A DNA stretch of 64,000 nucleotides from Motilibacter deserti (GCF_011250635.1 NZ_JAANNP010000004.1:62001-126000); one strand, 5' to 3'; positions 773-25,305 are shown, counted from the stretch's first letter. Numbers and translations: made by a program. Notes: generated by a model not told the origin, from the sequence alone.

Positions 773-791
773 AGTCCCACCTCGTGGGACT
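773..791. promoter_or_regulatory. Operator copy 2 (AGTCC-N9-GGACT) over Rep promoter/start
   Basis: The perfect palindrome AGTCCCACCTCGTGGGACT overlaps both a -10 element TATAGT (770-775) and the GTG start of Rep (784-786). The eight bases between -10 and GTG suggest a near-leaderless transcript. Protein binding here would block transcription; in RNA the hairpin would hide the start codon. Confidence 0.55.
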
Positions 792-1545: not shown

Positions 1546-1551
1546 CCCGGC

Positions 1552-3728: not shown

Positions 3729-4382
3729 CTACCCCACCGCTGCGGTGCTTGCGGTCAGCTCCTCGAGCAGCCGGTCGGCGGACGTGACGACAGCGCACCG
3801 CTGCGCGGCGTACTCCAGCGCGCTGCGGTGGTGGTCGGCCGAGAAGTCCGCGAGCGCGTCGGCGACGAAGAACGCCTGGATGTCGCGCATGAAGGCTTCG
3901 TTCGCCGTTGCCAAGCAGCCGATGTGCGCGTACACGCCGGTGATGACGAGCTGGTCCCGCCCCGTCTCCGCGAGCAGGTCGGCCAGCTTAGTGCGCTGGA
4001 AGGCGCTGTAGCGCCACTTGGTGAGGAGCACGTCATCGGGCTCGGGCGCGAGAGGCTCGATGATCGCCGAGCCCTCGTCCCCCGGGATGCCGTCGCCCCA
4101 GAAGTCCTGTTGCAGCCCGCGCTGCTCACGCGTCTGGCCGCCGGGCTGCGCGCTATAGACGACGGGGATGCCGAGGGCGCGCGCTCCAGCGGCGAGGGCG
4201 CGGATGTGGGCGATCACGTCGGTCAGCGGCGAAGCACCCGGCTCGAAGGCGCCGAGGAAGTACCTCTGCATGTCGTGCACCAGCAGCACGGCTCGACGGG
4301 GGTCCGGACGCCAGTCGACGCGGTTCTGAGGCAGCGAATCAACCATCGGCAGCGGGTAGGGCGCGATGCGCGGCAGAGCCAT
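3729..4382 (-). CDS. entB: Isochorismatase (EntB/DhbB isochorismate lyase domain only)
   Basis: A 217-residue cysteine-hydrolase-fold protein hydrolysing isochorismate to 2,3-dihydro-2,3-dihydroxybenzoate plus pyruvate. The N-terminus LPQNRVDWRPDPRRAVLLVH matches EntB/DhbB, with the nucleophile-region Asp in LLVHDMQRYFL; the motifs LLTKWRYSAFQ and VITGVYAHIGCL are also family-typical. EntB is about 285 residues because it carries an aryl carrier domain; here that domain is absent and is supplied by a separate gene at 9714. Last gene of the leftward siderophore operon, 205 bases after entE, with AGGAAGAGG before its ATG. It may have its own promoter, but I see no iron box in that gap. Confidence 0.92.
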   Translation of the reverse strand: MALPRIAPYPLPMVDSLPQNRVDWRPDPRRAVLLVHDMQRYFLGAFEPGASPLTDVIAHIRALAAGARALGIPVVYSAQPGGQTREQRGLQQDFWGDGIPGDEGSAIIEPLAPEPDDVLLTKWRYSAFQRTKLADLLAETGRDQLVITGVYAHIGCLATANEAFMRDIQAFFVADALADFSADHHRSALEYAAQRCAVVTSADRLLEELTASTAAVG

Positions 4383-4587: not shown

Positions 4588-6231
4588 TCAGGGCCGCAAG
4601 GAGGCAGCGAGCGACTCGCGCAGCTGTTTGCGGCTGACCTTGCCTACGCCCGTCTGCGCGAAGGCGTCGACGAACTTCACCAGGTCCGGCACCTTGTAGG
4701 CGGCGAGCCCGCGTTCGCGCAGGAACTTCTTGAGCGCGGGGGCGCTGGGCGCCTCGCCACGAGGCACGACCACGGCGCAGCTGCGCTCGCCGAGATAAGC
4801 GTCGGGGACCGCGACGACCGCGGCGTCGTGCACCGCGGGATGGGCGAGCAGGTGGTTCTCGATCTCCTCGGCCGCGATCTTCTCGCCGCCGCGGTTGATC
4901 TGGTCCTTGTCCCGCCCCGTCACGACGAGGTAGCCCTCGGGGGTGACCCGGACGAGGTCTCCGGTGCGGTAGAACCCGTCCCTCGTGAAGGCCGAGCGGT
5001 TGTGCTCCTCAGCGCGGTAGTAGCCGCGGATGGTGTACGGCCCGCGCGTCAGCAGGTGGCCCACCTCTCCGGCGGGTACGTCCTGGTCCTCGTCGTCGAC
5101 GACCCGGACCTCGTCGTCGGGGGATATCGGCCGCCCTTGCGTCGCGAGGATGATGTCGTCCGGGTCGTGGAGCCGCGTGTAGTTGACGAGGCCCTCGGCC
5201 ATCCCGAAGACCTGCTGGAGTCCGCACCCGAGCGTCGGCCGCACCCGCCGCGCGACCTCCTCGCTGAGCTTGGAGCCGCCTACCTGCAGGACCTCCAGCG
5301 ACGACAGGTCGTGCTCGAGACGGGCGGCCGAGTCGAGCCACAGGAGCGCGAGGGGTGGGACGAGGGCCGTGATGGTGACCCGCTCGCGTTCGATCAGAGC
5401 CAGCGCGGTCGCCGGGCTCGGGTCCGGCGCGAGGACGACGGTGCCGCCGGCGTACAGCGTCCCGAGCACGCCGGGGGAGCTGAGCGGGAAGTTGTGCGCG
5501 ACGGGGAGCGCGGCGAGGTAGACGCTGGACGGGTCCAGCCCGCAGATCTTCGCACTCGCCCGGACGCTGTAGAGGTAGTCGTCGTGCGTCCGCGGGATGA
5601 GCTTCGGCACGCCGGTGCTGCCGCCGGACAACTGCAGGAAGGCAACATCGGAGGGAGCTGGATCGGCAAGCGGCCGCGGAGCGTCACGCAGGTCGTCGAT
5701 CGACGTGAAGCTTCCCGGGTCGTCGCCCACCACGAGCACGTGGCGCAAGGACGGGGCGGCGCCCTGCGCCTCGTAGCCGAGGGCTCGGTAGTCGAAGCCC
5801 GCGTGATGGCCCGGGACGATGTAGGCGACGGCCTCGGTGAACGAGCAGAAGTACGTGATCTCGCTGCTGCGATGGGCGGGAAGCGCGAACACCGGTAGCG
5901 CGCCGACGCGCCACAGCGCGAAGCAGACCTCGAAGAACTCCGCGACGTTCGGCAGTTGGAGCACCACGCGGTCCTGGGCGCGGATGCCGATCCGGTGCAG
6001 CCCGGCGGCCAGGCGGTCGGCGCGCTCGTCGAGCTCTGAGTACGTCCACCGCCGCTCGCCGTCCACGACCGCTACCCGGTCGGCGTAGCGCTCGGCGAGC
6101 TCGCGGAGCATGGAGCCGAACGTCTGCCCCGCCCAGTAGCCCACCTCGCGGTAGCGCCGGACGAACTCCTCGGGCCACGGGACGTAGCCCGGTAGCTCCT
6201 GCTGCTTCGCGCTCTTGGTGTCCGTGCTCAC
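4588..6231 (-). CDS. entE: 2,3-dihydroxybenzoate-AMP ligase (EntE/DhbE)
   Basis: A 547-residue stand-alone adenylation enzyme that activates 2,3-dihydroxybenzoate with ATP and loads it onto an aryl carrier protein. The start ([20 protein letters not shown]) and the core [20 protein letters not shown] (about 210-230), YRTGDLVRV and the C-terminal [12 protein letters not shown] with the catalytic Lys are typical of the EntE/DhbE/YbtE group. GTG start overlaps the entC stop (GTGA), giving translational coupling. The cognate carrier is probably the free protein at 9714-9974. Confidence 0.95.
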
Positions 6232-7418
6232 GCGGCACCGCCCAGGCCGAGCGCGTCGAGGAAGGTCCCGAACTTGGCGCTGGTCTCATCGAGCTCGTCC
6301 TGGGGGCGGGAGCCCGGGACGATGCCCGCCCCCGCGTACACCCGAACAGAGCTTCCGGAGACTTCGCCGCAGCGGATCGTGACGGCCCACTCGCCGTCAC
6401 CGGACGCGTCGCACCACCCGACCGTGCCGGAGTAGAACCCGCGGTCGAAGGGCTCGACCTGGGCGATGACGTCACGTGCCTTCGCGACGGGCGTGCCGCA
6501 GACGGCAGGGGTCGGGTGCAGGGCCAGGGCGAGGTCGAGCGAGGTGGTCTCGTCGCTCAGCAGTTCCCCTGAGATCTCGCTGCCGAGGTGCCACATCGTG
6601 GCGGTCTGCACGAGCGAGGGGCCTGCGACCGAGACGTGTCGGCACAGCGGGCGCAGCCCCTCGACGACCGCCTCGGCGACCACGGCGTGCTCGCGCAGGT
6701 TCTTCGCCGAGCGCAGCAGCTCCTCCGCTCGGCGGACGTCCTCCATAGGGTTCGCGCTGCGCGGCACCGAGCCGGCGAGCGGGTTCGCCCGGGCCACCCC
6801 GTCGATGCGCGACACGAGCAGCTCGGGGCTGGCCCCGACCAACGTTCGTGCCGGGGCGGGGGCGGCGGCCGGGAGCTCGACGGCGAAGGCGTAGCCGCGG
6901 GGGTCGCGGTACGCCAGCCGGGCGAGCAGGGCCGCGACGTCGACCGGAGCGGAGGTGCGTACGTCGAGGGCACGCGCCAGGACAACCTTCTCCACGTCAC
7001 CCGACGACATCCGCCCGAGAGCCGCGGCGACGCCGGCCTTGTAGTCCTCCGGCTCGGGCACCGGCCTCACGACGGCTTCCGCCGCGAAGGGTGCAGCGGG
7101 CCGCGGCACCGAGGGGCTGAGCGGTGCGCCCCACGTGGCGTGCACGGGGACGGACAGCGCGGCGCCGCGTCCGGGGTCGAAGGGCACCGCGCCGACCACG
7201 ATCGCCGGGTCGCCGGCGGCCGTCGCCTCCTCGAGCAGTCGGCGGACGGCGGCGCCGAGGTCGGCGGGCGGCGGCCCGGCCGGCAGCCGCGCGGACACCC
7301 CTTCGGCGAGCAAGGTGTGCCGCGGCGACGCGAAGAAGGCCGACGTCCCCGGCGCGTAGCCGGCGAGCAACTGCTGCGCCGGCAAGGACATGGCGGGGGT
7401 CTCCAGCTGTGCGGTCAC
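6228..7418 (-). CDS. entC: Isochorismate synthase (EntC/DhbC)
   Basis: A 396-residue chorismate-utilising enzyme converting chorismate to isochorismate, the first committed step to 2,3-DHB. The C-terminal signature [19 protein letters not shown] and the central [11 protein letters not shown] and [11 protein letters not shown] motifs are those of EntC/DhbC. GTG start with AGGAGAA upstream, 21 bases after entA. The DHB set here (A, C, E, B) is complete. Confidence 0.94.
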
Positions 7419-7439: not shown

Positions 7440-8234
7440 TCAGGCGCGCAAGGTCGCGCCGCCGTCGACGTACAGGTCGTGCATGGTGATGTGGCGCGCG
7501 GCGTCGGAGACGAGGAAGAGGACCGCCTCCGCGACGTCCTCCGGGTCTGCGATGCGGCCGAGCGGGATGCCGACGCGGTACGTGCCGGGGTCGCCGGCGA
7601 TGACGGCGTCCGCGCCGTCGGGGCCGGACCACAGCCCGCGCTGCATGTCGGTGAGGGTCGAGCCCGGCGAGACGACGTTGCAGCGGATGCCGTGCGGCGC
7701 CAGCTCCAGGCCGAGGCACTTGGTGAACTGCGTCGCGGCCGCCTTGGACGCTGCGTACGCCGACATCGACATCCGGGGGACCCCGGCGGCGTTCGAGCCG
7801 ACGGTGACGATGCAGCCGCGCTGACGGGCCAGCATCCGCCGCGCCGCGGCACGCGAGGCGACGAACACGCCGGTCGCGTTCACGGCGAGGGTCGCGTCCC
7901 AGTCCTCGTCGGAGAGATCGACGACCGGGCCGGGCCGCAGGATGCCCGCGACGTTCACCAGCGTGTGGAGCGGGCCGAGGCGGCGCTCGACGTCGGCGAC
8001 GACGCCGTCGACCGCAGGCCGGTCGGTGACGTCGACGGAGTAGGGCAGCGACGGGGTGCCGCGGGCGCGGAGCGCCGCGGAGGTGTCCTCCGCGGCGCTC
8101 GCGTCGGCGTCGAGCACGGCGACGGACGCGCCCTCGCTGGCGAGGGCCGTGGCCACGGCAGCGCCGATGCCACGTCCCGCGCCCGTCACGAGGGCGACGG
8201 TCCCGTCGATGCCGGGACGTCCGAGGGGTGTCAC
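7440..8234 (-). CDS. entA: 2,3-dihydro-2,3-dihydroxybenzoate dehydrogenase (EntA/DhbA)
   Basis: A 264-residue classical SDR that oxidises dihydro-DHB to 2,3-DHB with NAD+. Visible: nucleotide-binding [15 protein letters not shown] near the N-terminus, the NVAGI motif, catalytic Ser and the YAASK tetrad, then [13 protein letters not shown], characteristic of EntA/DhbA. The GTG at 8234 was chosen because it overlaps the stop of the beta-propeller gene (GTGA) and sits behind GAGGAG. A longer open frame extends upstream but lies inside the propeller gene. Confidence 0.93.
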
Positions 8235-9517
8235 AGCCCCCCGATCTCCTCGAGGACCGCGGCCGGGGCGGGGGCGTCCGCAGCCTCGAGCTCGGCGACG
8301 GCGCGCTGGAGGTAGCGGGCGCCTTCGCGCGACGCGACCAGGTCGCCGGCCGCGGTCCAGTTGCCGCGGGCCAGAGCGCGCTCGAGGTCCTTGAGCGCCC
8401 TGTGCAGGTCGCGGTCGGACGTGGCGTACGGCTTCAGTGCGGCGAGCACGCGGGCAGCCGTGGACTTGTCGTCCGTGGCGGTCGCACCCGGCTTCACGAT
8501 CGCGACGGTGTCGTCGCCCTTGTTCGTCACGAAGACCTGGTCGTAGAGCGTGTCGACGGCCGGCGAGTTGGCCCGCGGCCCCACCGGCAGGGACCACTTG
8601 AGGTCACCGGTGGCGGTGTCGATCGCCCACAGCGCCCCGTCACCCTGGTTGGTGAAGTACGCCGTGTGCGTGCCCGCGTCGAGGTCGATGCCGAGGCCGC
8701 CGCTGTTGTTGCCGGCGTCCAGCGTCTTCACGACCTTCAGGGTCTTCGTGTCGAAGACCGTGATCGAGCCGTCGCTGTAGCCGGTGACGAAGCCGAGGCC
8801 GGTCTTCGGGTCGACGCTCACGTTCTGCGACGTCGCCGGCATCGGGATGACCTTCTTGATCTTCTTCGTCTTGCCGTCCACGACGGTGACGTCGCCGGCG
8901 AGGTGCACCACGTAGAAGTTCTTCGACGTCGGGTCGTACTCGACGTCCATCGCGTTCGCGCCGGCGCCGACCGGGATGAGCCCCTCGAGCGTGTTGGTCT
9001 CGCCGTCGATGACGGCCACCCGCTGGTTGTTGATCTCGGTGACGTAGAGCTTGTTGTTGCGGGTGTCGACCTCGAGCTGTCGGTTCTGCACGCCGAGCTC
9101 GATGGTCGCGACCTCGGTGTTCGTGTCGAGGTCGTAGACCGACACAGAGTTCTTGCGGGTGTTGCCGGTGTAGAGCGTGTTGGTCACCGGGTTGATCGCC
9201 AGTGCGTACGGCGCGGTGTCCGAGGACGGGATCGAGCCCGTCACCATGCCGGTCTTCGTGTCGACGACCTGGATCTGCGCGGTGTCGGTGTTCGTGCGGG
9301 TGCCGCCGCTCGCCACGTAGGTCTTGCCGGTGTAGGGGTTCGTCACGACCTCGTAGACGCCGAGGGCGACCTTGAAGCTGCCGGTCTTGGCCGGGCCGTC
9401 GGCGGCCGAGGCGGGGGACCCGGCGAGGCCGGTCACGGCGAGCGCGGCGCTCGCGGTGGCGACGGCCGCGATGCGGGCCGCGCCGGAAAGGCGGGAGCGC
9501 TGCTGGGAGAGCGACAT
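8231..9517 (-). CDS. Secreted YncE-like beta-propeller, first gene of DHB operon
   Basis: A 428-residue protein with a signal peptide (about 1-40, ending ASAAD). Seven or so YVTN-like blades follow, with repeated motifs such as [34 protein letters not shown] and [14 protein letters not shown] helical, Ala/Leu/Glu-rich tail of about 85 residues lies at the C-terminus. The fold resembles E. coli YncE, which is Fur-regulated; its biochemical role is unsettled. This gene is closest to the two iron boxes and is coupled by GTGA to entA, so it is probably co-expressed with siderophore synthesis under iron starvation. A role in handling the siderophore outside the membrane is inference. Confidence 0.85.
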
Positions 9518-9560: not shown

Positions 9561-9579
9561 GTAAGGCAAGCCTTACCTA
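9561..9579. promoter_or_regulatory. DtxR/IdeR-type iron box, leftward siderophore operon
   Basis: The 19-mer TAAGGCAAGCCTTACCTAA matches the actinobacterial iron box consensus (TTAGGTTAGGCTAACCTAA) at most positions and is largely palindromic. It lies 44 bases upstream of the propeller start. In the minus direction TACTCT follows it as a possible -10. Binding of Fe(II)-loaded DtxR/IdeR would repress the DHB operon. Confidence 0.8.
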
Positions 9580-9607
9580 AATCCGCAGGTCCCTGGCCGG
9601 TTCCCGC

Positions 9608-9626
9608 TAAGGTGAGGCTCGCCTAA
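9608..9626. promoter_or_regulatory. DtxR/IdeR-type iron box, rightward NRPS operon
   Basis: TAAGGTGAGGCTCGCCTAA matches the consensus at 15 of 19 positions. TAAGCT (9624-9629) at its right edge is a plausible -10 for the carrier-protein/NRPS operon, whose first ATG is at 9714. Together with the box at 9561 it makes a divergent iron-controlled promoter. Confidence 0.82.
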
Positions 9627-9713: not shown

Positions 9714-9974
9714 ATGACGGACCGGACCGACTCGACGGGCACGCAGCCCCTGCGCACCGATGCCCTGCGCGCGGACGTGGCTGACATCCTCGGCGTGTCG
9801 CCCGCCGAGATCGGCGACGACGACGACCTCGTCGACGCCGGCCTGGACTCGGTGCGCCTGCTGGCGCTGCTCAACCGCTGGCAGGTCGCCGGGACGTCCG
9901 TCTCGTTCCTGGACCTGGCCGAGCGACCGACGGTCGCGGCGTGGGCGGGGCTGCTCGCTCCCGCGGGCGAGTGA
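9714..9974 (+). CDS. Free-standing aryl carrier protein
   Basis: An 86-residue carrier protein with phosphopantetheine site Ser in DAGLDSVRLLALLNRW (about residues 45-60), followed by VSFLDLAERPTVAAW. This is the pattern of the C-terminal aryl carrier domain of EntB (GLDS-VR, WxxxG, F..L...PT...W). It would carry DHB from the EntE-like ligase to the NRPS condensation domain. Strong AGGAGAG before ATG 9714; its stop overlaps the NRPS GTG start (GTGA). Confidence 0.9.
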   Translation: MTDRTDSTGTQPLRTDALRADVADILGVSPAEIGDDDDLVDAGLDSVRLLALLNRWQVAGTSVSFLDLAERPTVAAWAGLLAPAGE

Positions 9975-12900
9975 CGGCGACCGAGGCCGTACCCGCGGCC
10001 GTCTCTGGCCCCCGCGACGAGGCGCCCGCGAAGCGCCTGGCGTTGACCGGCGCCCAGCGGGGGGTGTGGTTCGCCCAGGCGATCGACCCGGCGAACCCGG
10101 TCTTCAACACCGGGGAGTACCTCGAGCTGCGCGGTGCCCTCGACCCGGCAGCACTTGTCGCTGCGGCCCAGCGCGCGGTCGTCGAGGCAGACGCCCTGCA
10201 CGTCCGCTTCGCCGAGGACGGGTCCGGGGTGCCGTGGCAGCACCGGGTCCTGCCCGAGGCCGGCGAGATGCCGGTCATCGACGTGTCCGCTGAGGCCGAC
10301 CCCCGCCAGGCGGCGGAGGACGCGATGCGCCGCGACCTGTGGCGGCCGCTCGACCTGTCGACGGACGCGATGTTCGCCAATGCGCTGTTCCGACTCGGTC
10401 CCGACCACTGGGCCTGGTACCACCGCTTCCACCACATCGTCATCGACTACTTCGGCATGTCGCTGCTCAGCCGGCGCGCCGCCGAGCTCTACTCGGCGCT
10501 CGTGGCCGACGCGGCGCCTGCCGCGTCCCGCTTCCGGCCGCTGGAGGAGCTCGTGGCCGAGGACGAGGCGTACGCCGCCTCTGCCCGGCACACGGACGAC
10601 CGCGCGTACTGGACGCGGCGGCTCGCCGGACGTCCGGCGCAGGTCGGCCTCGCCCTGGGGTCGGCCCCGACCTCGCACCGCTTCACCCGCAGCGTGGCCG
10701 AGCTGCCGCCGGGGCTGCTCGAGCGGCTCGAGGCGGCCGCGGCCCGGCTCGGCACGGTCTGGCCGCAGCTGGTCGCCGCCGCGGCCGGCGTGCTGGTCTC
10801 CCGCGTCACCGGCTGCTCCGACGTCGTGCTCGGCTGGCCGGTGATGGGCCGGATGGGGTCGGTCGCCATGCGCGTGCCGGCCATGGTCGTCAACGTCCCG
10901 CCGCTGCGGTTGACGGTGGACGACGGGCAGCCGCTGTCCGCGCTGCTCGCGCACGTCGCGGCGGAGTCCCGCGAGGTGGCACGCCACGGGCGCTACCGCT
11001 ACGAGGACCTGTCGCGCGACCTCGGTGTCGTCCCGGGAGGCCCCCGCCTGTTCGGGCCGCAGGTCAACGTCATGCCGTTCGAGCCGGACCTGCGCTTCGC
11101 GGGCATCGCGGCCGTGGCGCACAACCTCTCGGCCGGCCCGGTCGACGACCTCACCTTCAACGTCTATCTGCGCGGGCGCCACGAAGGCCTGCAGCTCGAG
11201 GTCGACGCGAACCCTGCGCTCTACTCGCCAGAGGCCGTGCGCGCGCACCAGCGCCGTCTCGTCCACCTGCTCGCGGCTCTCGCCGACGCCGACCCGGACA
11301 CGCTCGTCGGCGACCTGGACGCGCTGCCTCCGGACGAGCGCGACCTCGTGGTCCGCGGCTGGAACGACACGGCCCGGCCCGTGCCGGCGACGACGTTGCC
11401 GGAGCTCTTCGCGGCGCAGGCCGCGCGCACGCCCACGGCCCTCGCGCTCGTCCCCGACGGCGGGCGCGCCCTGACCTACGTCGAGCTGGACGAGCGGGCC
11501 TCCCGTCTCGCGACGGTGCTACGAGCCCACGGCGCCGGCCCGGGACGCGTCGTGGCCGTGGCGCTGGACCGCTCGGTCGACCTGGTCGTGAGCCTGTACG
11601 CCGCGCACAAGGCCGGCGCGGCGTATCTCCCGCTCGACCCCGACCACCCGGCCGACCGGCTCGCCTTCATGCTCGAGGACGCGGCCCCGGTGTGCGTGGT
11701 GTGCGACGAGGCCACGGCCGGGCGGCTGCCCGCGGGCATGGCGACAGTCCGCGCCGACGACGCAGCCGCCAAACCGTCGGAGGACGCCGCCGGCTCGCCC
11801 GCCGGCCCCGACGACCCGGCGTACGTGATCTACACCTCGGGCTCGACAGGACGGCCGAAGGGCGTCGTCGTGCCGCACCGCGGCATCGTCAACCGGCTGC
11901 TCTGGATGCAGGACGCCTACCGGCTCGGCCCGGACGACCGCGTCGTGCAGAAGACCCCGGCCGGCTTCGATGTGTCGGTGTGGGAGTTCTTCTGGCCGCT
12001 GCTGGCCGGTGCCACCCTGGTGCTCGCGCGTCCCGGCGGGCACCGCGACCCGGCGTACCTCGCCGACCTCTTCGTGCGTGCGCGGGTCACGACCGCGCAC
12101 TTCGTGCCTTCGATGCTGCAGGCCTTCCTCGACGAGCCGTCCGCCGCGGCCACCTGCGGGTCGCTGCGCCGTGTGGTCTGCAGCGGCGAGGCCCTGCCCG
12201 AGGCCGCCGTCCGGCGCTTCCACACGACGCTGCCGGGCGTCGAGCTGCACAACTTGTACGGCCCCACCGAGGCGTCGGTCGACGTGACCGCCTGGGCATG
12301 CCGGCCGGAGGCGCCAGCAGGCCCGGTGCCGATCGGCCGACCCGTCTGGAACACCCGCACGTACGTGCTGGACCAGCGCGGGCGCCCGGTGCCGGTCGGG
12401 GCGGTGGGGGAGCTGTATCTGGCCGGGGTGCAGGTCGCGGACGGCTACCTGAACCGGCCCGACCTCACGGCCGAGCGCTTCCTGCCCGACCCTTTCGTGC
12501 CCGGCGAGCGGATGTACCGCACCGGGGACCTGGCGCGCTGGCGGTTCGACGGGGCCCTGGACTACCTCGGCCGCAACGACGACCAGGTCAAGATCCGCGG
12601 CCAGCGCATCGAGCTCGGCGAGATCGAGTCGGTGCTGCAGGCTCACCCGTGCGTGTCGGCCGCCGCCGTGGTCGCCCGCGAGGACCGGCCGGGGGACCGC
12701 TACCTCGCGGCGTACGTCGTGCCGGCCGGCGACGTCGACGTCCCCGAGCTGCGCAAGCATCTCGCGAGGTCGCTGCCCGACGCCATGGTGCCCAGCGCGT
12801 TCGTCACCTTGGACGCGCTGCCGGTCACCGTCAACGGCAAGCTCGACCGCAAGGCCCTGCCGCAGCCCGTCCGGGACCAGAGCAACGGCGCTGACGTACC

Positions 12901-13972
12901 CAGAACGCCGATGCAGGAGATTCTCTGCGGCCTCTTCGCCGACGTCCTCGGCCTGGAGCGCGTCGGGCCCGACGACGGGTTCTTCGAGCTCGGCGGGCAC
13001 TCGTTGCTCGCCGCCCAGCTCGCCGCCCGAGTGCGCGCGGTGCTCGGCCGTGACGTACCCCTCGGCTCGGTGTTCGCCGCGCCGACCCCCCGGGGGCTCG
13101 CTCAGCTGGTCGAGCAGGGCCGGGACGGTGACGCCCTGGCGGGCCTGCTCCCGCTGCGCTCCGGAGGCTCGGCCCCGGCGCTCTTCTGCATCCACCCGGC
13201 GGGCGGGCTTGGCTGGTGCTACGCCGGCCTGCTCCAGGAGGTCCCGCGGGAGCACCCGGTCTACGCGGTTCAGGCGCGCGGCCTCGACGGCCGGGAGGCG
13301 CTCCCGGGCTCCCTGCAGGAGATGGCGGCGGACTACGTACGCCAGATCCAGGCCGTGCAGCCCACCGGGCCGTACCACCTGCTCGGCTGGTCCGTGGGAG
13401 GAGTGATCGCCCACGAGACCGCCGTCCGGCTGCAGCAGGCCGGCGAGCAGGTCGGCGTCCTCGCGCTGCTCGACGCATACCCGAGCGAGCAGTGGGCCAG
13501 CCTTCCGCCGCCGGACGAGTCCGACGCGCTGACCGCGCTGCTGCTGATGGCCGGCCTCGACCCGGCGACGGCGCCGCTCCCACAGCCCCTGCGCCGGGAG
13601 GACGTCATCGCGCACCTGCGCGCGAACGGCAGCGCGGTCGGCGGGCTGGACGCGAGCACGCTGGCCGCGGTCGTCGGGGTCGTGGCCAACAACGCCGCGC
13701 TGATGCGAGCGCACCGGCACAGCGGCTTCGCCGGTGACGCCCTCTTCGTCGCCGCAACCCAGCCGGTCGCCCGCCCGTTGTTCGCCGTCCCCGACGGCAC
13801 GCTCGACCGCGACGGCTGGGCGTCGCACATTTCGGGCGAACTACAACTCATGGAACTTGCGTGCACCCATCCCGAGCTCGTACGTCCCGATGTCCTGCGC
13901 GCCATCGCTTCCGTCGTCGCGCGGCGCCTGTCGCAGGCCCCGCAGCTGCTTCCCCCGAGGAGTGACCGATAG
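9971..13972 (+). CDS. entF: Single-module NRPS C-A-PCP-TE, serine-type (EntF-like)
   Basis: 1333 residues in EntF order. Condensation domain (~15-450): active-site motif at ~153 reads HHIVIDYFG, with Tyr where HHxxxDG has Gly. Adenylation domain (~460-970): TSGSTGRPKG near 621, and by alignment to the PheA positions a specificity code D-V-W-H-V-S-L-V-D-K. This differs from the EntF serine code (DVWHFSLVDK) at one place. Carrier domain: GGHSLL (Ser near 1010). Thioesterase: GWSVGG (Ser ~1140) with a late His in CTHPEL. The predicted product is a DHB-serine oligomer, probably the cyclic trimer. Starts at GTG 9971 overlapping the carrier-protein stop. No MbtH gene is nearby. Confidence 0.93.
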   Translation: MTATEAVPAAVSGPRDEAPAKRLALTGAQRGVWFAQAIDPANPVFNTGEYLELRGALDPAALVAAAQRAVVEADALHVRFAEDGSGVPWQHRVLPEAGEMPVIDVSAEADPRQAAEDAMRRDLWRPLDLSTDAMFANALFRLGPDHWAWYHRFHHIVIDYFGMSLLSRRAAELYSALVADAAPAASRFRPLEELVAEDEAYAASARHTDDRAYWTRRLAGRPAQVGLALGSAPTSHRFTRSVAELPPGLLERLEAAAARLGTVWPQLVAAAAGVLVSRVTGCSDVVLGWPVMGRMGSVAMRVPAMVVNVPPLRLTVDDGQPLSALLAHVAAESREVARHGRYRYEDLSRDLGVVPGGPRLFGPQVNVMPFEPDLRFAGIAAVAHNLSAGPVDDLTFNVYLRGRHEGLQLEVDANPALYSPEAVRAHQRRLVHLLAALADADPDTLVGDLDALPPDERDLVVRGWNDTARPVPATTLPELFAAQAARTPTALALVPDGGRALTYVELDERASRLATVLRAHGAGPGRVVAVALDRSVDLVVSLYAAHKAGAAYLPLDPDHPADRLAFMLEDAAPVCVVCDEATAGRLPAGMATVRADDAAAKPSEDAAGSPAGPDDPAYVIYTSGSTGRPKGVVVPHRGIVNRLLWMQDAYRLGPDDRVVQKTPAGFDVSVWEFFWPLLAGATLVLARPGGHRDPAYLADLFVRARVTTAHFVPSMLQAFLDEPSAAATCGSLRRVVCSGEALPEAAVRRFHTTLPGVELHNLYGPTEASVDVTAWACRPEAPAGPVPIGRPVWNTRTYVLDQRGRPVPVGAVGELYLAGVQVADGYLNRPDLTAERFLPDPFVPGERMYRTGDLARWRFDGALDYLGRNDDQVKIRGQRIELGEIESVLQAHPCVSAAAVVAREDRPGDRYLAAYVVPAGDVDVPELRKHLARSLPDAMVPSAFVTLDALPVTVNGKLDRKALPQPVRDQSNGADVPRTPMQEILCGLFADVLGLERVGPDDGFFELGGHSLLAAQLAARVRAVLGRDVPLGSVFAAPTPRGLAQLVEQGRDGDALAGLLPLRSGGSAPALFCIHPAGGLGWCYAGLLQEVPREHPVYAVQARGLDGREALPGSLQEMAADYVRQIQAVQPTGPYHLLGWSVGGVIAHETAVRLQQAGEQVGVLALLDAYPSEQWASLPPPDESDALTALLLMAGLDPATAPLPQPLRREDVIAHLRANGSAVGGLDASTLAAVVGVVANNAALMRAHRHSGFAGDALFVAATQPVARPLFAVPDGTLDRDGWASHISGELQLMELACTHPELVRPDVLRAIASVVARRLSQAPQLLPPRSDR

Positions 13973-16900
13973 TGAGCCCCACCCGATCCCACCGCGCGGC
14001 GCGGCCGCGGCGACGCGGGCTCGTCCTGGCCGGCCGTCGCCCGCGTCTGCTGGCCGCGCTCCTCGGAGCCCTCGTCCTGGCGACGGGCAGTGCCGTGGCC
14101 GGGGGAGCGGCGATCGCGGCGGACGCAGGCCCTGAGGTCAAGACCACGAACGTCAGCGTCCCCGCGGGCGGCACCGTCTCGTTCACCGGCTCCGGCCTGG
14201 CTGCAGGTGCGCGGGTCGCCATCAAGCTCGACAGCGACACGCAGCTGAAGAACCCGGACGAGATGTCCGACGGCCGGTGGGTGGCCGACGCGAACGGCAC
14301 GCTGCAGGGGAAGGTCGCGATCCCCGGCACGACGACGATCGGCGCGCACTGGCTGCAGTTCCTGGCCGCCGGCGGCGTCAGCATCCGGCAGGAGTTCACG
14401 GTCGCCTCCGTGAGCCTCGGCTTCGCCTACGCCGGCACGGAGCAGTCGTTCACCGGGAGCGGCTTCCTTCCCGGCACGCGGGTCACCGTGAAGCTCGACA
14501 CCAATCCCATCCTCCCGAACCCGGCCGAGCCCGACGCGAAGTTCGTCGTCGACCAGGACGGCAAGCTCACCGGGACGGTCACGGTCCCCGCCGGGACGGC
14601 CCGCGGCACGCACACCCTGCAGTTCCTGGCCACCGGCGTCAGCATCAAGAGCCCGGAGTTCGCAGTCGTGGGCCTCACCCTGCCGACGGCGGCGGTCACC
14701 TCTGGCACGCCCATGACCTTCAGTGCGGCGGGCCTCCCGGCCGCGCGCAGCATCACCGTGAAGCTGGACGACAAGACGACTCTGACCAACCTCGCGACGA
14801 CCGACGGCACCTTCGTGACAGCCGCCGACGGGTCACTGACCGGCACGGTCACCGTCCCGGCCGGGACGACCGCGGGAGCCCACCGGGTCCGGCTGCTGTC
14901 CAACCCGGGAGTGAGCGTCCGGAGCGCGGAGTTCAGCGTGCAGGCAGCTCCGGTCGCAGCGACCGTGGCCCTGGGGGCCACCAGCGTGCAAGCCGGAAGC
15001 GGGATACCGGTGTCCGGAACAGGGTTCCCGGGCGGGGCGAAGATCACGGTGAAGCTCGACGACGACGCGATCCTCACGACGTTCCCGGCCGGCGCGGACG
15101 GGACGTTCTCCACGACGGTAACGCTGCCGGCCGGGACCGCCGTGGGCTCGCACTCGCTGCGCTTCCTGGCGGGGCCGCCGGCGACCAGCGTCAAGAGCGA
15201 GAGCTTCACCGTGACGGCCGTGCCGACGACGCCCCCGCCGGCGTCGGTCCTGCTGGGCGCCTCGTCGGTGCAGGCGGGCAGCGCGATCCCGGTCTCCGGC
15301 ACGGGCTTCCCCAGCGGGGCTACGGTCACGGTCAAGCTCGACGACGACGCGATCCTGACGACGTTCCCTGCCGGCGCTGACGGAGCCTTCGCGACGACCG
15401 TGACGGTGCCGGCTGACGCCGCCGCGGGCTCGCACTGGCTGCGGTTCCTGGCGGGGCCGCCGGCAACCAGCGTCAAGAGCGAGAGCTTCACCGTGACGGC
15501 CGTGCCCGTGGTGCGTGACCCCGAGGTGTCGCTCGGCGCGACGTCGGTCCAGGCCGGCTCGACGATCTCCTTCAGCGCGACGGCCTTCCCGGCCGGGCAG
15601 ACGCTGAGCATCAAGCTCGACGACGTGAACCCGGTGCTGGGGACCTTCACGATCGGCGCGGACGGCTCGGCCTCCGGCGCTGTGACGATCCCCGCCTCGA
15701 CGGCGGGCGGCTCGCACTGGCTGCGCTTCCTGGCGGCGAACCCGTCGACGAGCGTGAAGTCCGGGAGCTTCACGGTCACCGCTGCCCCGCAGCCCGATCC
15801 CACGGCGTCCGCGTCACCGACCGCGACCGCGTCACCGATCGCGTCCGCCTCGCCGTCGGCCACTCCTGCCGCGGCCTCTGCCACCCTGGGCAAGACCTCC
15901 GTGGCCGCGGGAGGCGAGCTGACCTTCAGCGTCAGCCGTTTCCCCGCCGGCCAGACCCTGACGGTCAAGCTCGACGACAACGCGATCCTGAAGACGTTCG
16001 CCATCGGCGCGAACGGCTCCGTGAACGGCTCGGTGACCGTGCCGGCCGGGACGAAGGCGGGAGCGCACTGGCTCCGCTTCCTGGCCGCGAACCCGTCGAC
16101 CAGCGTGAAGTCCGAGAACTTCACCGTCACCGCAGCCGGAAGCTCGTCGGCTTCCCCGGCACCGAGCGCGTCCTCCTCCACGCCGGCCGACTCCGGGGGC
16201 GCAGCCAAGGCGACGCTGAAGGCGACCTCGGTCAGGGCGGGCAGCGCTCTCTCCTTCAGCGCCACCGGCTTCCCGGCCGGCAAGACCCTGACGGTCAAGC
16301 TCGACGACGCGCACATCCTGAAGACGTTCAAGGTCGGGACGGATGGGTCGGTGAACGGCTCGGTGACCCTCCCGAAGGCGACCAGGAACGGCGCGCACTG
16401 GCTGCGCTTCCTCGCGCCGGACCCCCCGACGAGCGTCAAGTCCGTCAACTTCACGGTGACGGGCAGCACGGCGTCCTCCGGGGCGTCGGGCTCGGGCTCC
16501 GGGTCATCCGGCGGGTCGGGGGGCGGCTCTTCCGGTTCCGGCTCTGTGGGCTCGAGCGGCTCGTCGGGGTCGGGCGGAAGCTCTGGCGGCACCACCTCGG
16601 GTGGCGCGGCGACAGGCTCTGCGTCCAGCGGCAGCGACCCGAGCACCGGCGCGAAGGCGACGCTTAGCGGCTCCTCCGTCGCACCGGGCGGCACGGTCTC
16701 GTTCACGGGGACCGGCTTCCCGGCCGGCGAGCAGCTGACGATCAAGCTCGATGACCAGGACATCCTGCAGCAGTTCTCGATCAGCTCGTCCGGGAGCGTC
16801 TCGGGCACTGTCACCGTGCCGGCCGCTACGCCGGCGGGGGCGCACTGGCTGCGCTTCCTCGCGCCCAACCCGCCGACCACCCTGAAGGCCGGGTTCACCG

Positions 16901-17469
16901 TCGTGGCGGCTGCAGGCGCGAGCGGGTCGACGGGCTCCACGGCGACCGGCACGGGCACTGGCACTGGCACCGCGACAGGTGCCACTGCGTCGGCAACGGG
17001 CGCGAGCGCGAGCGCCGGCGGGGCCACGGTCACGCTCGGCGCGTCGCTCGCGGCGGCGGGCGGTGAGCTGCCGTTCACCGGCTCGGGCTTCCCCGCGTCG
17101 GCGGACGTGACGGTGACGATCGACGACAAGGACGTGCTGACGACGTTGGCCACGGACGCGGCCGGCTCGCTCGCCGGGTCCGTGATCCTCCCGCTCGACA
17201 CCCCGATCGGCAACCACTGGCTCACGTTCGCGGCGACCGGGCTGACGGCCGAGCTGAAGGTCGACTTCGTCACCAGCGCGTCGCCCAGCCCGGCCACGCT
17301 GGTGGCGGACACGATCGCGGCCGCGGCGTTGAACGGCGCGGAGGACGACGACCTGCCGCCGTGGGGCGTACTGCTCGCGGCCATCGCCGGTGCGGCGCTG
17401 CTCGGCGGCGCGGCCGGTGGCGGCGGCATTGCACTGATGCTGCAGCGCAGGGGGCTCGCCACCGCCTGA
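13972..17469 (+). CDS. Membrane-anchored surface protein with ten Ig-like repeats, in the NRPS operon
   Basis: 1165 residues; GTG start overlaps the NRPS TAG stop, so it is translationally coupled to siderophore synthesis. It has an Arg-rich N-region and a signal peptide (about 23-48). About ten repeats of 85-95 residues follow, each with VxAGGxxxFxGxGFPAG, an acidic VKLDDxxIL strand motif and a GAHWLRFLA motif, ending FTVTA. Ser/Gly/Thr-rich linkers separate the later repeats. One C-terminal TM helix (~1129-1155) ends in QRR; there is no LPXTG sortase motif. Repeats 4-8 are most alike, pointing to recent duplication. It is not a NEAT or HtaA domain that I recognise. A role as an outer-surface siderophore relay or scaffold is inferred from context only. 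Confidence 0.85.
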   Translation: MSPTRSHRAARPRRRGLVLAGRRPRLLAALLGALVLATGSAVAGGAAIAADAGPEVKTTNVSVPAGGTVSFTGSGLAAGARVAIKLDSDTQLKNPDEMSDGRWVADANGTLQGKVAIPGTTTIGAHWLQFLAAGGVSIRQEFTVASVSLGFAYAGTEQSFTGSGFLPGTRVTVKLDTNPILPNPAEPDAKFVVDQDGKLTGTVTVPAGTARGTHTLQFLATGVSIKSPEFAVVGLTLPTAAVTSGTPMTFSAAGLPAARSITVKLDDKTTLTNLATTDGTFVTAADGSLTGTVTVPAGTTAGAHRVRLLSNPGVSVRSAEFSVQAAPVAATVALGATSVQAGSGIPVSGTGFPGGAKITVKLDDDAILTTFPAGADGTFSTTVTLPAGTAVGSHSLRFLAGPPATSVKSESFTVTAVPTTPPPASVLLGASSVQAGSAIPVSGTGFPSGATVTVKLDDDAILTTFPAGADGAFATTVTVPADAAAGSHWLRFLAGPPATSVKSESFTVTAVPVVRDPEVSLGATSVQAGSTISFSATAFPAGQTLSIKLDDVNPVLGTFTIGADGSASGAVTIPASTAGGSHWLRFLAANPSTSVKSGSFTVTAAPQPDPTASASPTATASPIASASPSATPAAASATLGKTSVAAGGELTFSVSRFPAGQTLTVKLDDNAILKTFAIGANGSVNGSVTVPAGTKAGAHWLRFLAANPSTSVKSENFTVTAAGSSSASPAPSASSSTPADSGGAAKATLKATSVRAGSALSFSATGFPAGKTLTVKLDDAHILKTFKVGTDGSVNGSVTLPKATRNGAHWLRFLAPDPPTSVKSVNFTVTGSTASSGASGSGSGSSGGSGGGSSGSGSVGSSGSSGSGGSSGGTTSGGAATGSASSGSDPSTGAKATLSGSSVAPGGTVSFTGTGFPAGEQLTIKLDDQDILQQFSISSSGSVSGTVTVPAATPAGAHWLRFLAPNPPTTLKAGFTVVAAAGASGSTGSTATGTGTGTGTATGATASATGASASAGGATVTLGASLAAAGGELPFTGSGFPASADVTVTIDDKDVLTTLATDAAGSLAGSVILPLDTPIGNHWLTFAATGLTAELKVDFVTSASPSPATLVADTIAAAALNGAEDDDLPPWGVLLAAIAGAALLGGAAGGGGIALMLQRRGLATA

Positions 17470-17815: not shown

Positions 17816-19741
17816 CTACTTGCGGTAGACCTCGTAGACCTCGCCGAGGTTGTTCGAGACGACGTAGAGGTTGCCGTTCGGGCCGGTCCGGATGTCGGTG
17901 GCGACCCCGAAGTCCTGGCCGAACAGGAGCGACTCGCTCTCGGTGATGCCGTACTTCTCGGCGTTGTCCGCCACCTTGTCGTGCAGCCGCTTGTCGGTCG
18001 ACGAGATGCCGGTACGTCGGCTGTTGATGTCGATCTTGAAGATCTGGCCGCCGAGCAGCAGGTTGCGGGCCGCGCCGACGAACAGGTCACCGTCGTAGGC
18101 GCTGCCGAGCGCGTTCCCGTCCTGGAAGCCGAGCCCGATCGGCGCCAGCTCGTACTTCCAGCTCAGCGCCGGGTCCTGGTAGTGCGAGAGGACGCGACCG
18201 TTGACGGCCGACAGCTGGCCGCGGATCTCGCCGGCCGGAAGGGCGGCGGTGTGGACGTTGACGTACGCCCGGCCCTGCTTGAGCCGACGGAGCAGCTCCG
18301 CCATGGAGCCGTCGAAGCCCGGGGCGCGGGCGATGACGTCGGCGGGCGTGATGCGGCCCTCCGCGACCTTGGTCTCGGCGCCGACGGTCACACCCGCCGG
18401 GTTGTTGAACAGGTTCACGGCGATGGGGCCGTTCTGCCCCGGCCCGCCGAGGTGGATGTGTGCCATGCGGGCGTTGGTGATGTTCGCGAGCTCGAGCCGG
18501 TACTTCAGCGAGCCGTCGCTCAGAAGCACGAACGTGGCTTCGCCCGTAGCCGCGGAGGAGTTGACCGGCACTTCCCGGGAGCCGCTGAGGTCGGCCTTGA
18601 AGGTGCTGCCGCCGACCGTGACCTTGTACATGCGCTCCAGTGCAAGCTCCGGCGAGGACTGGGCGTTGTTGACGTTCGCCGGGTCCCAACGCGTCTGCTG
18701 GATGCCGGCGAAGGGAGCCGTCGACTCGATGGTGCGGTACTGGGCCTGCCTCGCGAGGGGGCCCATGGTCTGGACCCAGCCGAGGTTGGACCCGGCTGGC
18801 ACCCGGTTGATCTCGCTGAAGCTGTCGTCGCCGTTCTGGGAGTCCCAGAGGTCGCCGCTGATCGGGTCGAAGGCGAAGCCGAAGGCGTTGCGGACGCCGT
18901 AGGCGAAGACCTTCTGCCAGTTCGCGCCCACCTCGCCCCCGCGCTCGGTGCCCGCGGCGAAGAACGGGTTGTCGGCTGGGGCGGAGCCGTCGTCGTTGAG
19001 CCGCAGGATCGCGCCGCTCAGGTGCGCGTTGTCGGGCTCCGGCCCGCCGTACTGGTCGTCCGGCTGGTTGCCGACGGGGATGGCCGGGCACGGGAGCGCC
19101 GTGACGCAGCCGGGGCCGTCGGCGAGGTTCTGCAGCTGGCCGCGGCGGCCCTGGTCGCCGAGCTCGATGTAGAGCTTGCCGTCCGGCCCGAAGGCGATCT
19201 TGCCGCCGTTGTGGTTGCCGCGCTCGACGACCTGGCCGGCGGCGTTGACGTTGGTGGGGTCGTTCTGCCGCGAGCGGGTCGCGATGATGGCGCGGTCCAT
19301 CGTGAGCGTCGACCCGTTCCAGACGAAGCGGTCGACCCGGTTGCCCAGCATCGGGACCTCGGTGGGCACGGTCGAGTCAGCGCCGGTGGTGCTCTGCGTC
19401 CAGAACAGGTAGACCCAGGGAGTCGCCGGGAACTGCGGATGGAGCGCCATACCGAGCAGGCCCCGCTCGGAGTTCGAGTTCACCGCGAGGTCGAGCACCG
19501 TGGAGACGACGCCGTTGTTCACGCGCTGGACGCGGCCCGTTGCCTTCTCGGTGACGAGCATGTCGTTCGCGCCGAGGAACGCGAGGCTCGTCGGAGCCTG
19601 CAAACCGCTGGCGGCGGTGCGCACCGCGAGGTTCGGGTCCAGGACCGTCGGCGACGCGGCATATCCGGCTTGCGTGGGCGGTAGCACTGCGGCCGCCAGC
19701 GGAAGCACGGCGACGGCGATGAGCGCCTTCTTGCGGGTCAT
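17816..19741 (-). CDS. Secreted glucose/sorbosone dehydrogenase-like propeller with inserted CHRD domain
   Basis: 641 residues with a signal peptide (1-29, ending AGYAA). The body is a PQQ-dependent sugar dehydrogenase-type propeller: LAFLGANDMLVTEKATGRV, RGLLGMALHP, GNHNGGKIAFGPDGKLYIELGD, FAYGVRNAFGFAFDP. A CHRD domain (about 374-515, with FKADLSGSREVP, MAHIHLGGPGQNGPI and GEIRGQL) is inserted before the last blades, which resume at SHYQDPALSWKYELAPIG. ATG 19741 was chosen for its AAGGAGAGG. The CHRD insert suggests surface attachment or metal/oxygen chemistry, but substrate and cofactor are unknown. There is no iron box before it. Confidence 0.8.
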   Translation of the reverse strand: MTRKKALIAVAVLPLAAAVLPPTQAGYAASPTVLDPNLAVRTAASGLQAPTSLAFLGANDMLVTEKATGRVQRVNNGVVSTVLDLAVNSNSERGLLGMALHPQFPATPWVYLFWTQSTTGADSTVPTEVPMLGNRVDRFVWNGSTLTMDRAIIATRSRQNDPTNVNAAGQVVERGNHNGGKIAFGPDGKLYIELGDQGRRGQLQNLADGPGCVTALPCPAIPVGNQPDDQYGGPEPDNAHLSGAILRLNDDGSAPADNPFFAAGTERGGEVGANWQKVFAYGVRNAFGFAFDPISGDLWDSQNGDDSFSEINRVPAGSNLGWVQTMGPLARQAQYRTIESTAPFAGIQQTRWDPANVNNAQSSPELALERMYKVTVGGSTFKADLSGSREVPVNSSAATGEATFVLLSDGSLKYRLELANITNARMAHIHLGGPGQNGPIAVNLFNNPAGVTVGAETKVAEGRITPADVIARAPGFDGSMAELLRRLKQGRAYVNVHTAALPAGEIRGQLSAVNGRVLSHYQDPALSWKYELAPIGLGFQDGNALGSAYDGDLFVGAARNLLLGGQIFKIDINSRRTGISSTDKRLHDKVADNAEKYGITESESLLFGQDFGVATDIRTGPNGNLYVVSNNLGEVYEVYRK

Positions 19742-19991: not shown

Positions 19992-20827
<836 letters not shown>

Positions 20828-20831
<4 letters not shown>

Positions 20832-21913
20832 GACCGGCCCTTCCGCCACTCGGACGCGAGCAGCCACATGAGGTAGAGGCCGCCGACGGCCCCGGTGAGG
20901 ACGCCGACCGGCAGGGCGGTGGCGAGCAGGTGCTGGGCGACCAGGTCGGCCAGGGCCAGCACGAGGCCGCCCATGAGGACGGCGGGGAGCAGCCCGGCGC
21001 CCTGGCCCCGGGTGAGCCGGCGGGCGATCTGCGGCGCGGCCAGAGCGACGAAGCGGATCGGCCCGGCCGAGGCGACGGCCACCGCCGTCGCGGCGACGGC
21101 GAGGACGAGCAGCCCCAGCCGCGCGCGCTCGACCGAGATCCCCAAGGCCTTCGCCGCGTCGTCGCCCATCTCGAGCATCCGCAGCTTGCGTGAGAGCACG
21201 ATGCCGACGGGAAGCAGCACGGCGAACGCGACGGCGATCGGGCGTACGTGCTCCCAGCCCCGGCCGTTCAGGCTCCCCACGAGCCACACCTGCGCGCTCA
21301 GCGCGCGGTCCACCGAGGACCGGGTCAGCAGGAAGCTGTTGACCGAGACCAGGGCGGAGCTGACCCCGATCCCGATGAGGATCAGCCGGTAGCTCTGCAC
21401 GCCGCGCGAGTAGGACAGCAGGTAGATGACCGCCGCGGTCAGCAGGCCGCCCACGACCGCCCCGCCGGCCGTCCCCGCCGTCCCGGCGCCGAGGAAGAGG
21501 ATCGCGACCAGGCCGCCCATCGCGGCCCCGTTGTCGAAGCCGACCACGTCGGGGCTGCCCAGCGGGTTGCGCGACAGGCTCTGGAAGACGTAGCCGGCCA
21601 GGCCGAGGCAGCCCCCGACCATGAGCGCGGTCAGGACACGGGGCAGGCGCAGCGTCTCGACGATGAACTCGGTGGCCGACGTGCCGCCACCCAGCAAGGT
21701 CCGGACGACGTCGCCGACCGGGAGGGGGTAGTCGCCGGTCGTGATGCTCCACACGGCGACGACCACGACGAGCGCGGCCAGCGCCAGCCCGACGAGCACG
21801 GGGCGCAGCGTCCAGCGCAGGGAGAGCGCGCCCCCGGCCAGCGAGAGCACGCGCCACGGCAGCGGGGCCGCCCGGCCGGTCTCGGGGGCACGGCTCGGCA
21901 GGGTCGACGTCAC
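20828..21913 (-). CDS. fepG: Ferric-siderophore ABC transporter permease (FepG-type)
   Basis: 361-residue FecCD-family permease with about ten hydrophobic helices. Signatures include LRLPRVLTALMVGGCLGLAGYVFQSLSRNPLGSPDVVGFDNG and RFVALAAPQIARRL. GTG 21913 was chosen because it overlaps the stop of the upstream permease; the longer open frame lies inside that gene. It forms the channel with the partner permease. Confidence 0.93.
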
Positions 21914-23007
21914 AGCTGGGCGACCTTCCGTCGGCGGACGACCGCGACGAACACGGGGGCGCCGATGAGTGCGGTGATGAACGCGGCCTGCAGCTCGCCC
22001 GGCCGGGCGACGACGCGCCCGATCACGTCCGCGGTCAGCAGCAGGACGGGGGCGAGGACCATCGACCACGGCAGGACCCACCGCTGGTCCGGGCCGACGA
22101 AGGCACGGGCGACGTGCGGGACGGTGAGCCCGACGAAGGCGATGGGGCCGACGGCGGCGGTCGCGGCCCCGCAGAGCAGCAGGATGGCGAGCGCGGACCA
22201 GGCCCGGGTACGTCCTACGTGCGCTCCGAGCGCTCGCCCCGTGTCCTCGCCCAGGGCGAGCGCGTTCAGCGAGCGCGCCAGGGCCAGCGCGATGACGGCG
22301 CCGAGCGCGAGGAAGGGCCCGACCTGCGTAAGCGTCGACATGTCGTGCCCGGAGAGCGCACCGACCTGCCAGAAGCGCATGGCGTCGAACGTGCCCGGGT
22401 CGCTGAGGCTGAGCGCCTGGGTGAACGCGCCCAGGGCCGCGGACACCGCCGTGCCTGCGAGGGCGAGCCGGATCGGCGTCGCCCCGCTCCGCCCCGTCGC
22501 ACCCAGCCCGTAGACGACGACCGAGGTGACGGCCGCGCCGGCGAGGGCCGGCCAGACGTACTGCGCGGGGTCGGTGAAGCCGAAGATGCTGATGGCTACG
22601 GCCGCCGCCGCGGCGGCGCCCGCGTTGACGCCGAGGATGCCGGGGTCGGCGAGCGGGTTGCGGGTGACCGCCTGCATGAGCGCCCCGGCGAGGCCGAGCG
22701 CGGCCCCGACGGCGAGCCCGATCAGGGTGCGTGGGACGCGCAGGTCGTGCACGACGGTCGACGCCGTGGAGTCGTCGGGGTGGAGCAGCACGTCGAGGAC
22801 CGTTCCGAGGGACAGCGCCCGCGACCCGACGGCGATGCTCAGCAGGGACACGGCCGCGAGCAGCACGAGCGCGAGCACGAGCCCGCCGGTCCGGGCCCAC
22901 GGCCCGCCGCGCGGCACCGGCCCGGCCGCCCGCGTGGCGGTGCTCCCGCTGCCGTCATCGCCGCCGACACCGGGCGACGCGATCGCCATCGGCTCGGTCC
23001 GCGACAT
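21910..23007 (-). CDS. fepD: Ferric-siderophore ABC transporter permease (FepD-type)
   Basis: 365-residue FecCD-family permease and first gene of the importer operon. Signatures: LRVPRTLIGLAVGAALGLAG, MQAVTRNPLADPGILGVNAGA, IAFVGLTVPHVAR. The ATG (23005-23007) has no Shine-Dalgarno; TAGCCT lies exactly seven bases upstream within an iron box, so the mRNA is probably leaderless and iron-repressed. No periplasmic-binding-type lipoprotein gene accompanies it. Confidence 0.93.
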   Translation of the reverse strand: MSRTEPMAIASPGVGGDDGSGSTATRAAGPVPRGGPWARTGGLVLALVLLAAVSLLSIAVGSRALSLGTVLDVLLHPDDSTASTVVHDLRVPRTLIGLAVGAALGLAGALMQAVTRNPLADPGILGVNAGAAAAAAVAISIFGFTDPAQYVWPALAGAAVTSVVVYGLGATGRSGATPIRLALAGTAVSAALGAFTQALSLSDPGTFDAMRFWQVGALSGHDMSTLTQVGPFLALGAVIALALARSLNALALGEDTGRALGAHVGRTRAWSALAILLLCGAATAAVGPIAFVGLTVPHVARAFVGPDQRWVLPWSMVLAPVLLLTADVIGRVVARPGELQAAFITALIGAPVFVAVVRRRKVAQL

Positions 23008-23026
23008 GGCGCTTAGGCTAACCTAA
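23008..23026. promoter_or_regulatory. Iron box overlapping leaderless promoter of importer operon
   Basis: On the plus strand GGCGCTTAGGCTAACCTAA matches the iron-box consensus at 15 of 19 positions, with a perfect TTAGGCTAACCTAA core (23013-23026). On the minus strand the core contains -10 TAGCCT, seven bases before ATG 23007. Repressor bound here would cover the -10 and transcription start. Confidence 0.85.
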
Positions 23027-25301: not shown

Positions 25302-25305
25302 GGAA

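Follow-up and report, generated by a model that had tools for sequence, protein, structure and literature searches.

The window analyzed here, a stretch of 64,000 nucleotides of Motilibacter deserti, combines Ig-like repeats of the KLDD...HWLRFL type, a YncE-like propeller, an iron box, and a catecholate siderophore locus, which together make up the module described in this article. Judging from its sequence, the repeat protein is a membrane-anchored stalk. Considered for functional linkage alone, the Ig protein and the propeller very probably serve catecholate iron acquisition. The best explanation for the whole, and one that is slightly favored, is that an iron-regulated Ig stalk and a secreted propeller act in the uptake half of an enterobactin-type cycle. 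Relatives in other actinobacteria lie beside a propeller or are fused to one, again in an iron locus of this kind; hence, the pair looks like an undescribed iron-capture device. No description of it was found in the literature searched, which excluded most subscription journals and preprints.

Apart from the membrane lipoprotein, little is known about how large ferric siderophores cross the thick Gram-positive wall. A conserved, iron-controlled stalk with its propeller, for which a natural fusion exists in an uptake locus, is a concrete and testable candidate for this step. If this is true, the Fur-regulated and long-uncharacterized YncE propellers would gain a role in siderophore handling.

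Organization of the siderophore locus

The locus consists of two divergent operons (Table 1). The plus operon comprises the aryl carrier protein (ArCP), the EntF-like synthetase, and the Ig protein, and the minus operon the propeller followed by entA, entC, entE, and the isochorismatase. The genes of an enterobactin-type pathway are kept together, with entA, entC, entE, isochorismatase, ArCP, and a single-module C-A-T-TE synthetase. The specificity signature of the adenylation domain, read by eye from motif anchors, is DVWHVSLVDK, which we take to be a serine-type code. With this signature, the siderophore of the cluster is likely of the enterobactin type (DHB-serine). No match to a Streptomyces Fes, as a Fes/IroE-type esterase, was found within the window.

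The genes of the plus operon are tightly packed. The GTG start of the synthetase overlaps the stop of the ArCP, and the last base of the synthetase stop codon TAG (13970–13972) doubles as the G of the GTG start of the Ig protein, with a Shine-Dalgarno sequence GAGGAG 9 nt 5' of it. A sister species of the same genus (G783) has kept the whole locus, including an Ig protein of ten repeats with 65% identity. The overlap between the synthetase and the Ig gene persists there with another stop (CCGTGA), from which the coupling is taken as conserved and not accidental. An earlier note made on this DNA had described this overlap correctly but had called the Ig protein translationally fused into the operon; the frames do overlap by 1 nt, whereas the proteins are not fused, and the term is slightly overstated.

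The importer operon, FecCD-FecCD-FepC, lies further downstream on the minus strand. No substrate-binding protein was recognized within the window, importer genes included, which agrees with the earlier remark that the importer locus has no visible substrate-binding lipoprotein. A gene lying between those of the Ig protein and the importer encodes a secreted protein that resembles glucose/sorbosone dehydrogenases and has a CHRD domain inserted (GSDH-CHRD); it is 92% identical in the sister species. Its counterpart was not found in the Streptomyces loci described below, and it is hence left out of the module.

Table 1 Features of the siderophore locus, with positions counted from the first letter of the window.
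Feature	Position	Strand	Remarks
Isochorismatase, equivalent of the EntB N-terminal domain	3729..4382	-	
EntE-like DHB-AMP ligase	4588..6231	-	
EntC-like isochorismate synthase	6228..7418	-	
EntA-like 2,3-dihydro-DHB dehydrogenase	7440..8234	-	
Secreted YncE-like 7-bladed β-propeller with C-terminal helical domain	8231..9517	-	YncE E 2e-29
DtxR/IdeR-type iron box	9562..9580	.	1 mismatch to TWAGGTWAGSCTWACCTWA
Second iron box	9608..9626	.	3 mismatches to TWAGGTWAGSCTWACCTWA
Free-standing ArCP, equivalent of the EntB C-terminal domain	9714..9974	+	First gene of the plus operon
EntF-like NRPS (C-A-T-TE)	9971..13972	+	NF007605 EntF E 5e-278, below equivalog cut-off
Ig-like repeat surface protein	13972..17469	+	ORF, repeat HMM, one-repeat model
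GSDH-CHRD protein	17816-19741	-	
FepC-type ATPase	19992..20831	-	
FecCD-type siderophore permease 2	20828..21913	-	
FecCD-type siderophore permease 1	21910..23007	-	Partial iron box 23008-23026

Architecture of the Ig-repeat protein

The Ig protein has 1165 amino acids. It starts with a hydrophobic signal segment (aa ~25–45), which is followed by ten Ig-like repeats bearing the KLDD and HWLRFLA motifs (aa 55–1107), joined by Ser/Gly/Pro-rich linkers. Near the C terminus, a further hydrophobic stretch (aa ~1130–1150), assigned as transmembrane (TM) segment, precedes a basic tail. The ten-repeat, membrane-anchored protein that had been postulated from the sequence is thus found in all its parts. 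The protein does not contain any Cys. Its repeats are 31–82% identical pairwise, and each of them scores between 3e-31 and 5e-42 with a repeat HMM that was trained on the same ten repeats.

A structure prediction of one repeat, which the earlier note had suggested as a check, was made with the ten repeats as alignment and yields an all-β Ig-like sandwich with a pLDDT of 94.9. The nearest solved folds are macroglobulin-type (MG) domains and intimin. Pfam matches to GEVED and MG2 are fold-level only and carry no functional meaning, and a PDB sequence search returned matches mostly to the Gly/Ser linkers; both were discarded. A search of a plasmid collection gave no match.

The protein had been claimed not to be a known siderophore enzyme, receptor, NEAT protein, or HtaA protein, and the profile searches bear this out. 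Its Pfam matches include neither a NEAT domain nor PF04213 (HtaA/CR domain), and a Peripla_BP_2 match and a lipobox Cys are both absent. The C terminus ends with the TM segment and basic tail instead of an LPXTG sortase motif.

The repeats match the GxPGS-type Ig-like domain profile NCBIfam NF058592 (E 1e-17). This is a generic Ig profile with no stated function, and many unrelated surface proteins contain Ig domains that share the broad fold, whereas the KLDD/HWLR signature is confined to the window, Streptomyces, and fusion group. The motifs K-x-D-D and H-W-L-R, each on a strand of its own, are, L32 aside, invariant in 36 of 36 repeats from Streptomyces clusters. The repeats of the window genus retain D33 and H64 in 20/20 cases, K31 and D34 in 17/20, W65 in 16/20, and R67 in 15/20. 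In the related Ig domains encoded near HtaA-like proteins, DD, H, and R are retained, whereas neither K nor W is; the generic ones of sortase-type wall proteins keep H and partly R, the full signature being absent. An obvious Fe(III) ligand site is not present in the repeats (no Cys, one Tyr). Measured by this conservation, the repeated surface exceeds the needs of a plain spacer.

Iron boxes

Both iron boxes of the siderophore locus sit between the divergent operons, and a mean of 0.00 such boxes is expected in shuffled sequence versus the two observed. A third, half-matching box lies upstream of the FecCD-FecCD-FepC operon. The sister species has comparable boxes. Iron control of the operon that contains the Ig protein, which had been proposed before, is supported by these predicted sites.

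The YncE-like propeller

The propeller gene opens the divergent DHB operon, and its stop overlaps the start of entA. To our knowledge, E. coli YncE has no settled function. This 7-bladed protein is Sec-secreted and Fur-regulated; it occurs in supernatants and is over-expressed when fur is mutated (PMC5120174). The window propeller resembles it by profile and by fold (model pLDDT 73; E. coli YncE as top PDB match) and likewise lies under iron boxes. It differs in reaching 102 bits against the YncE equivalog NF052280 with its cut-off of 400, in an extra C-terminal helical domain, and in its association with an Ig stalk and enterobactin-type genes. Since the score is far below the equivalog cut-off while the fold is alike, the protein is referred to as YncE-like only. 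The helical domain comprises about 80 aa (8231–8480, minus strand) and is absent from the Streptomyces propellers; a stretch similar to it, with 38% identity, occurs at G000:C184:6598-6789.

Identity between the window propeller and those of the Streptomyces clusters is 21–28%, which is scarcely above that of unrelated YncE-like proteins. In a tree, it groups with the Streptomyces cluster propellers versus other YncE-like proteins with support of 97/88, the tree having long branches and few outgroups. Reciprocal best hits in Streptomyces are ambiguous, as another YncE-like protein beats the expected partner in some genomes. Hence, the window propeller is regarded as the same kind of partner, and orthology is not claimed. 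Propellers of the same subfamily encoded elsewhere in Streptomyces genomes mostly have iron boxes; these were absent from the unrelated YncE-like propellers that were checked.

Linkage to enterobactin-type clusters in Streptomyces

A contig scan with the whole Ig protein found two relatives only, both from Streptomyces and both by an EntF-type cluster with a propeller next door. A query of two repeats against 394 Streptomyces genomes gave eight strong matches (E < 1e-24), followed by a gap to E 1e-10. The weaker matches (frames of 170–260 aa) were excluded, those inspected being mostly generic single-domain, sortase-type wall proteins. With EntE as query, a DHB cluster was detected in 161 of the same 394 genomes. 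Each of the eight strong matches belongs to an enterobactin-type cluster and is no more than 10 kb away from EntE; for a gene placed at random, the rough chance of this is far below 1e-15, whereby related genomes are not independent. Homologues lying mostly away from siderophore genes, the outcome named by the earlier note as speaking against its proposal, were looked for and did not occur.

The Ig-positive Streptomyces loci all have one gene order: (entC)-E-B-ArCP-EntF, then Fes in opposite orientation, and after it the genes of the Ig protein and the propeller. These clusters contain EntE (65–67% identical to that of the window), isochorismatase, ArCP (51–60% identical to that of the window), a full-length EntF (52–53%), and in every case a Fes esterase (68–100%), with the propeller following the Ig gene. 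Fes and the Ig gene diverge, and the latter stands outside the synthetase operon under its own iron box. In nine of nine Ig-positive loci, the intergenic region that precedes the Ig gene contains such a box (0–2 mismatches), and most of these loci have another one upstream of the propeller. Altogether, 17 iron boxes were observed in these loci versus 0 in shuffles.

For a census of clusters, about 80 of the best EntE neighborhoods were classed by tblastn, an EntF-type cluster being defined by a full-length synthetase with 52–53% identity over about 1300 aa. Among the roughly 25 EntF-type clusters obtained, 8 contain the Ig protein and the propeller, 7 the propeller only, which directly adjoins Fes or EntF, and 10 neither of them nearby. 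The sampled DHB clusters of other types have neither the Ig protein nor the propeller. The Ig protein never occurs without the propeller (8/15 vs 0/10, P about 0.006 if clusters are independent). By these numbers, the propeller is a partner more often than the Ig protein, which is a further accessory. As 17 of the roughly 25 clusters do without the Ig protein and 10 without a nearby propeller, neither is essential; by its gene distribution, the Ig protein is thus an accessory component.

Relatives beyond Streptomyces and the natural fusion

Close relatives are rare elsewhere. In 395 genomes of Actinomycetes from 138 genera, strong matches are confined to the window, its sister species, and one Streptomyces; among 397 genomes across the phylum, they are the window and one Streptomyces. 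Within the window's own family, three further genomes lack the Ig protein. Intermediate matches outside Streptomyces (1e-13 to 1e-7) include two genera of family f8, in which the nearest relatives outside Streptomyces and the window genus are found.

These relatives are fused to a YncE-type propeller within a catecholate-uptake locus. One Ig-propeller fusion protein of 833 aa each is encoded at L178:10432-12933 and L179:9735-12236 (genomes G1089 and G963, both of one f8 genus). The N-terminal domain reads VKLDD...GEHWLRFL and matches the repeat HMM with 4e-17 and 6e-17, and aa 343–625 form a propeller of the YncE type (4e-21), for which identities with the propellers of the Streptomyces clusters reach 39%. 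The fusion gene is divergent within a locus of enterochelin esterase (Fes), FecCD, a siderophore-type substrate-binding protein (SBP), and iron boxes; no NRPS or synthetase was seen within the 17 kb covered. A fused pair that stands beside SBP, FecCD, and Fes without a synthetase indicates that the pair belongs with uptake and not with synthesis. Together with the linkage in Streptomyces clusters, this fusion backs the earlier proposal that the Ig protein and the propeller at 8231 form an iron-acquisition module.

The two fusion loci encode in addition a second TM-anchored Ig-type protein (L178:7017-9311 and L179:6335-8188, both on the minus strand), whose start overlaps the stop of the siderophore-type binding protein in L178. 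In the other f8 genus, a TM-anchored protein with one related Ig domain and an unrecognized N-terminal domain (L152:1339-2499, minus strand; similar in L155, L156, L158, and L160) is encoded directly after a heme-type ABC ATPase, near a weakly HtaA-like protein.

Comparison with known systems

HtaA/ChtA heme acquisition of actinobacteria, encoded beside HmuTUV, likewise places a secreted, TM-anchored surface protein by an ABC iron importer, and in family f8, a related Ig domain with DD and R kept is part of a TM-anchored protein after a heme-type ATPase. However, the window protein has ten Ig repeats in place of an HtaA domain and is linked to a catecholate synthetase and not to a heme importer. 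The Isd/NEAT proteins of Firmicutes capture their ligand at the surface and hand it over through the thick wall. The likeness is a conceptual analogy, limited to capture and handover across the wall; the window protein has neither NEAT domain nor sortase motif, and its putative ligand is another one.

The ens enterobactin cluster of Streptomyces varsoviensis contains a free-standing isochorismatase, a carrier protein, a single-module C-A-PCP-TE serine synthetase, and a Fes-type esterase, and its biosynthetic logic is the same as that of the window cluster (PMC10188961). In contrast, the text of the paper names no Ig-repeat or propeller protein; the adjacent ensU1-U9 are given therein as of unknown function (PMC10188961).

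Proposed mechanism and alternative explanations

Under low iron, a DtxR/IdeR-type repressor would leave the boxes at 9562 and 9608. The synthetase and the stalk would then be co-translated from the plus operon, and the propeller and DHB enzymes produced from the minus operon. The stalk, anchored by its C-terminal TM segment, may span the wall and contact the propeller, and both would jointly capture the ferric catecholate at the cell surface and hand it to the FecCD/FepC importer. This scheme builds on features read from the DNA, namely the operon overlap, the iron boxes, the secretion signal and TM segment, the repeat fold, the cluster linkage, the propeller pairing, and the fusion; wall spanning, contact between stalk and propeller, ligand binding, and relay are what they suggest. 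Capture or relay of a ferric catecholate as the specific mechanism has about even chances. A stricter version, a Gram-positive relay in which a multi-site stalk with one KLDD/HWLR site per repeat binds or passes ferric enterobactin with the YncE-type propeller, is put forward tentatively and may well prove too specific.

The main rival is a pure docking stalk, by which the Ig repeats merely hold the propeller or another partner, and ligand binding or hydrolysis of the trilactone is left to the propeller. The repeat number varies like that of a spacer (10 in the window genus, 4 in Streptomyces, 1–3 in the fusions), and so do the Ser/Gly/Pro-rich linkers fit one; the constant company of the propeller, up to fusion with it in L178 and L179, is equally in keeping with docking. 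Among propeller proteins of this general kind there are lactonases. The window propeller passes the Pfam Lactonase cut-off (24.7 vs 21.7), and no Fes was seen in the window. However, the invariance of K, D, D, H, W, and R throughout the Streptomyces repeats is not shared by generic Ig spacers, and the Streptomyces loci have Fes beside the propeller, so that hydrolysis is already covered there. Pure docking is hence judged unlikely, though it deserves more weight than the following two explanations.

An iron-regulated adhesin or cell-envelope protein, which would mediate attachment or cell–cell contact in iron starvation with no direct handling of the siderophore, is suggested by the layout of Ig repeats with a TM anchor, typical of adhesins, by intimin and MG domains as nearest folds, and by generic relatives among sortase-type wall proteins. 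It is improbable, as an adhesin would need neither the confinement of its close homologues to DHB-serine clusters and a catecholate-uptake locus nor the tight linkage to, and fusion with, a propeller. Even less probable is an aid in release or export, by which the pair would move new siderophore outward through the wall and not back in. The overlap of the window Ig gene with the synthetase gene itself would suit this role, but the fused pair has SBP, FecCD, and Fes for neighbors and no synthetase in the stretch covered, and the Streptomyces Ig gene, divergent from Fes and with its own iron box, is not part of the synthetase operon.

Other genes of the window

Beside the siderophore operon, a replication-associated protein (REP_ORF2-G2P) and a large serine recombinase are encoded at 784–3156, which is possibly the edge of an integrated mobile element. 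At 24813–26895 on the minus strand, a reverse transcriptase of the UG23 group (PADLOC RT_UG23, E 5e-183) adjoins a SLATT-type protein with two TM segments (RTasSLATT, E 2e-46). The GC3 of this pair is below that of its surroundings, and the pair is a candidate for a DRT-type anti-phage system.
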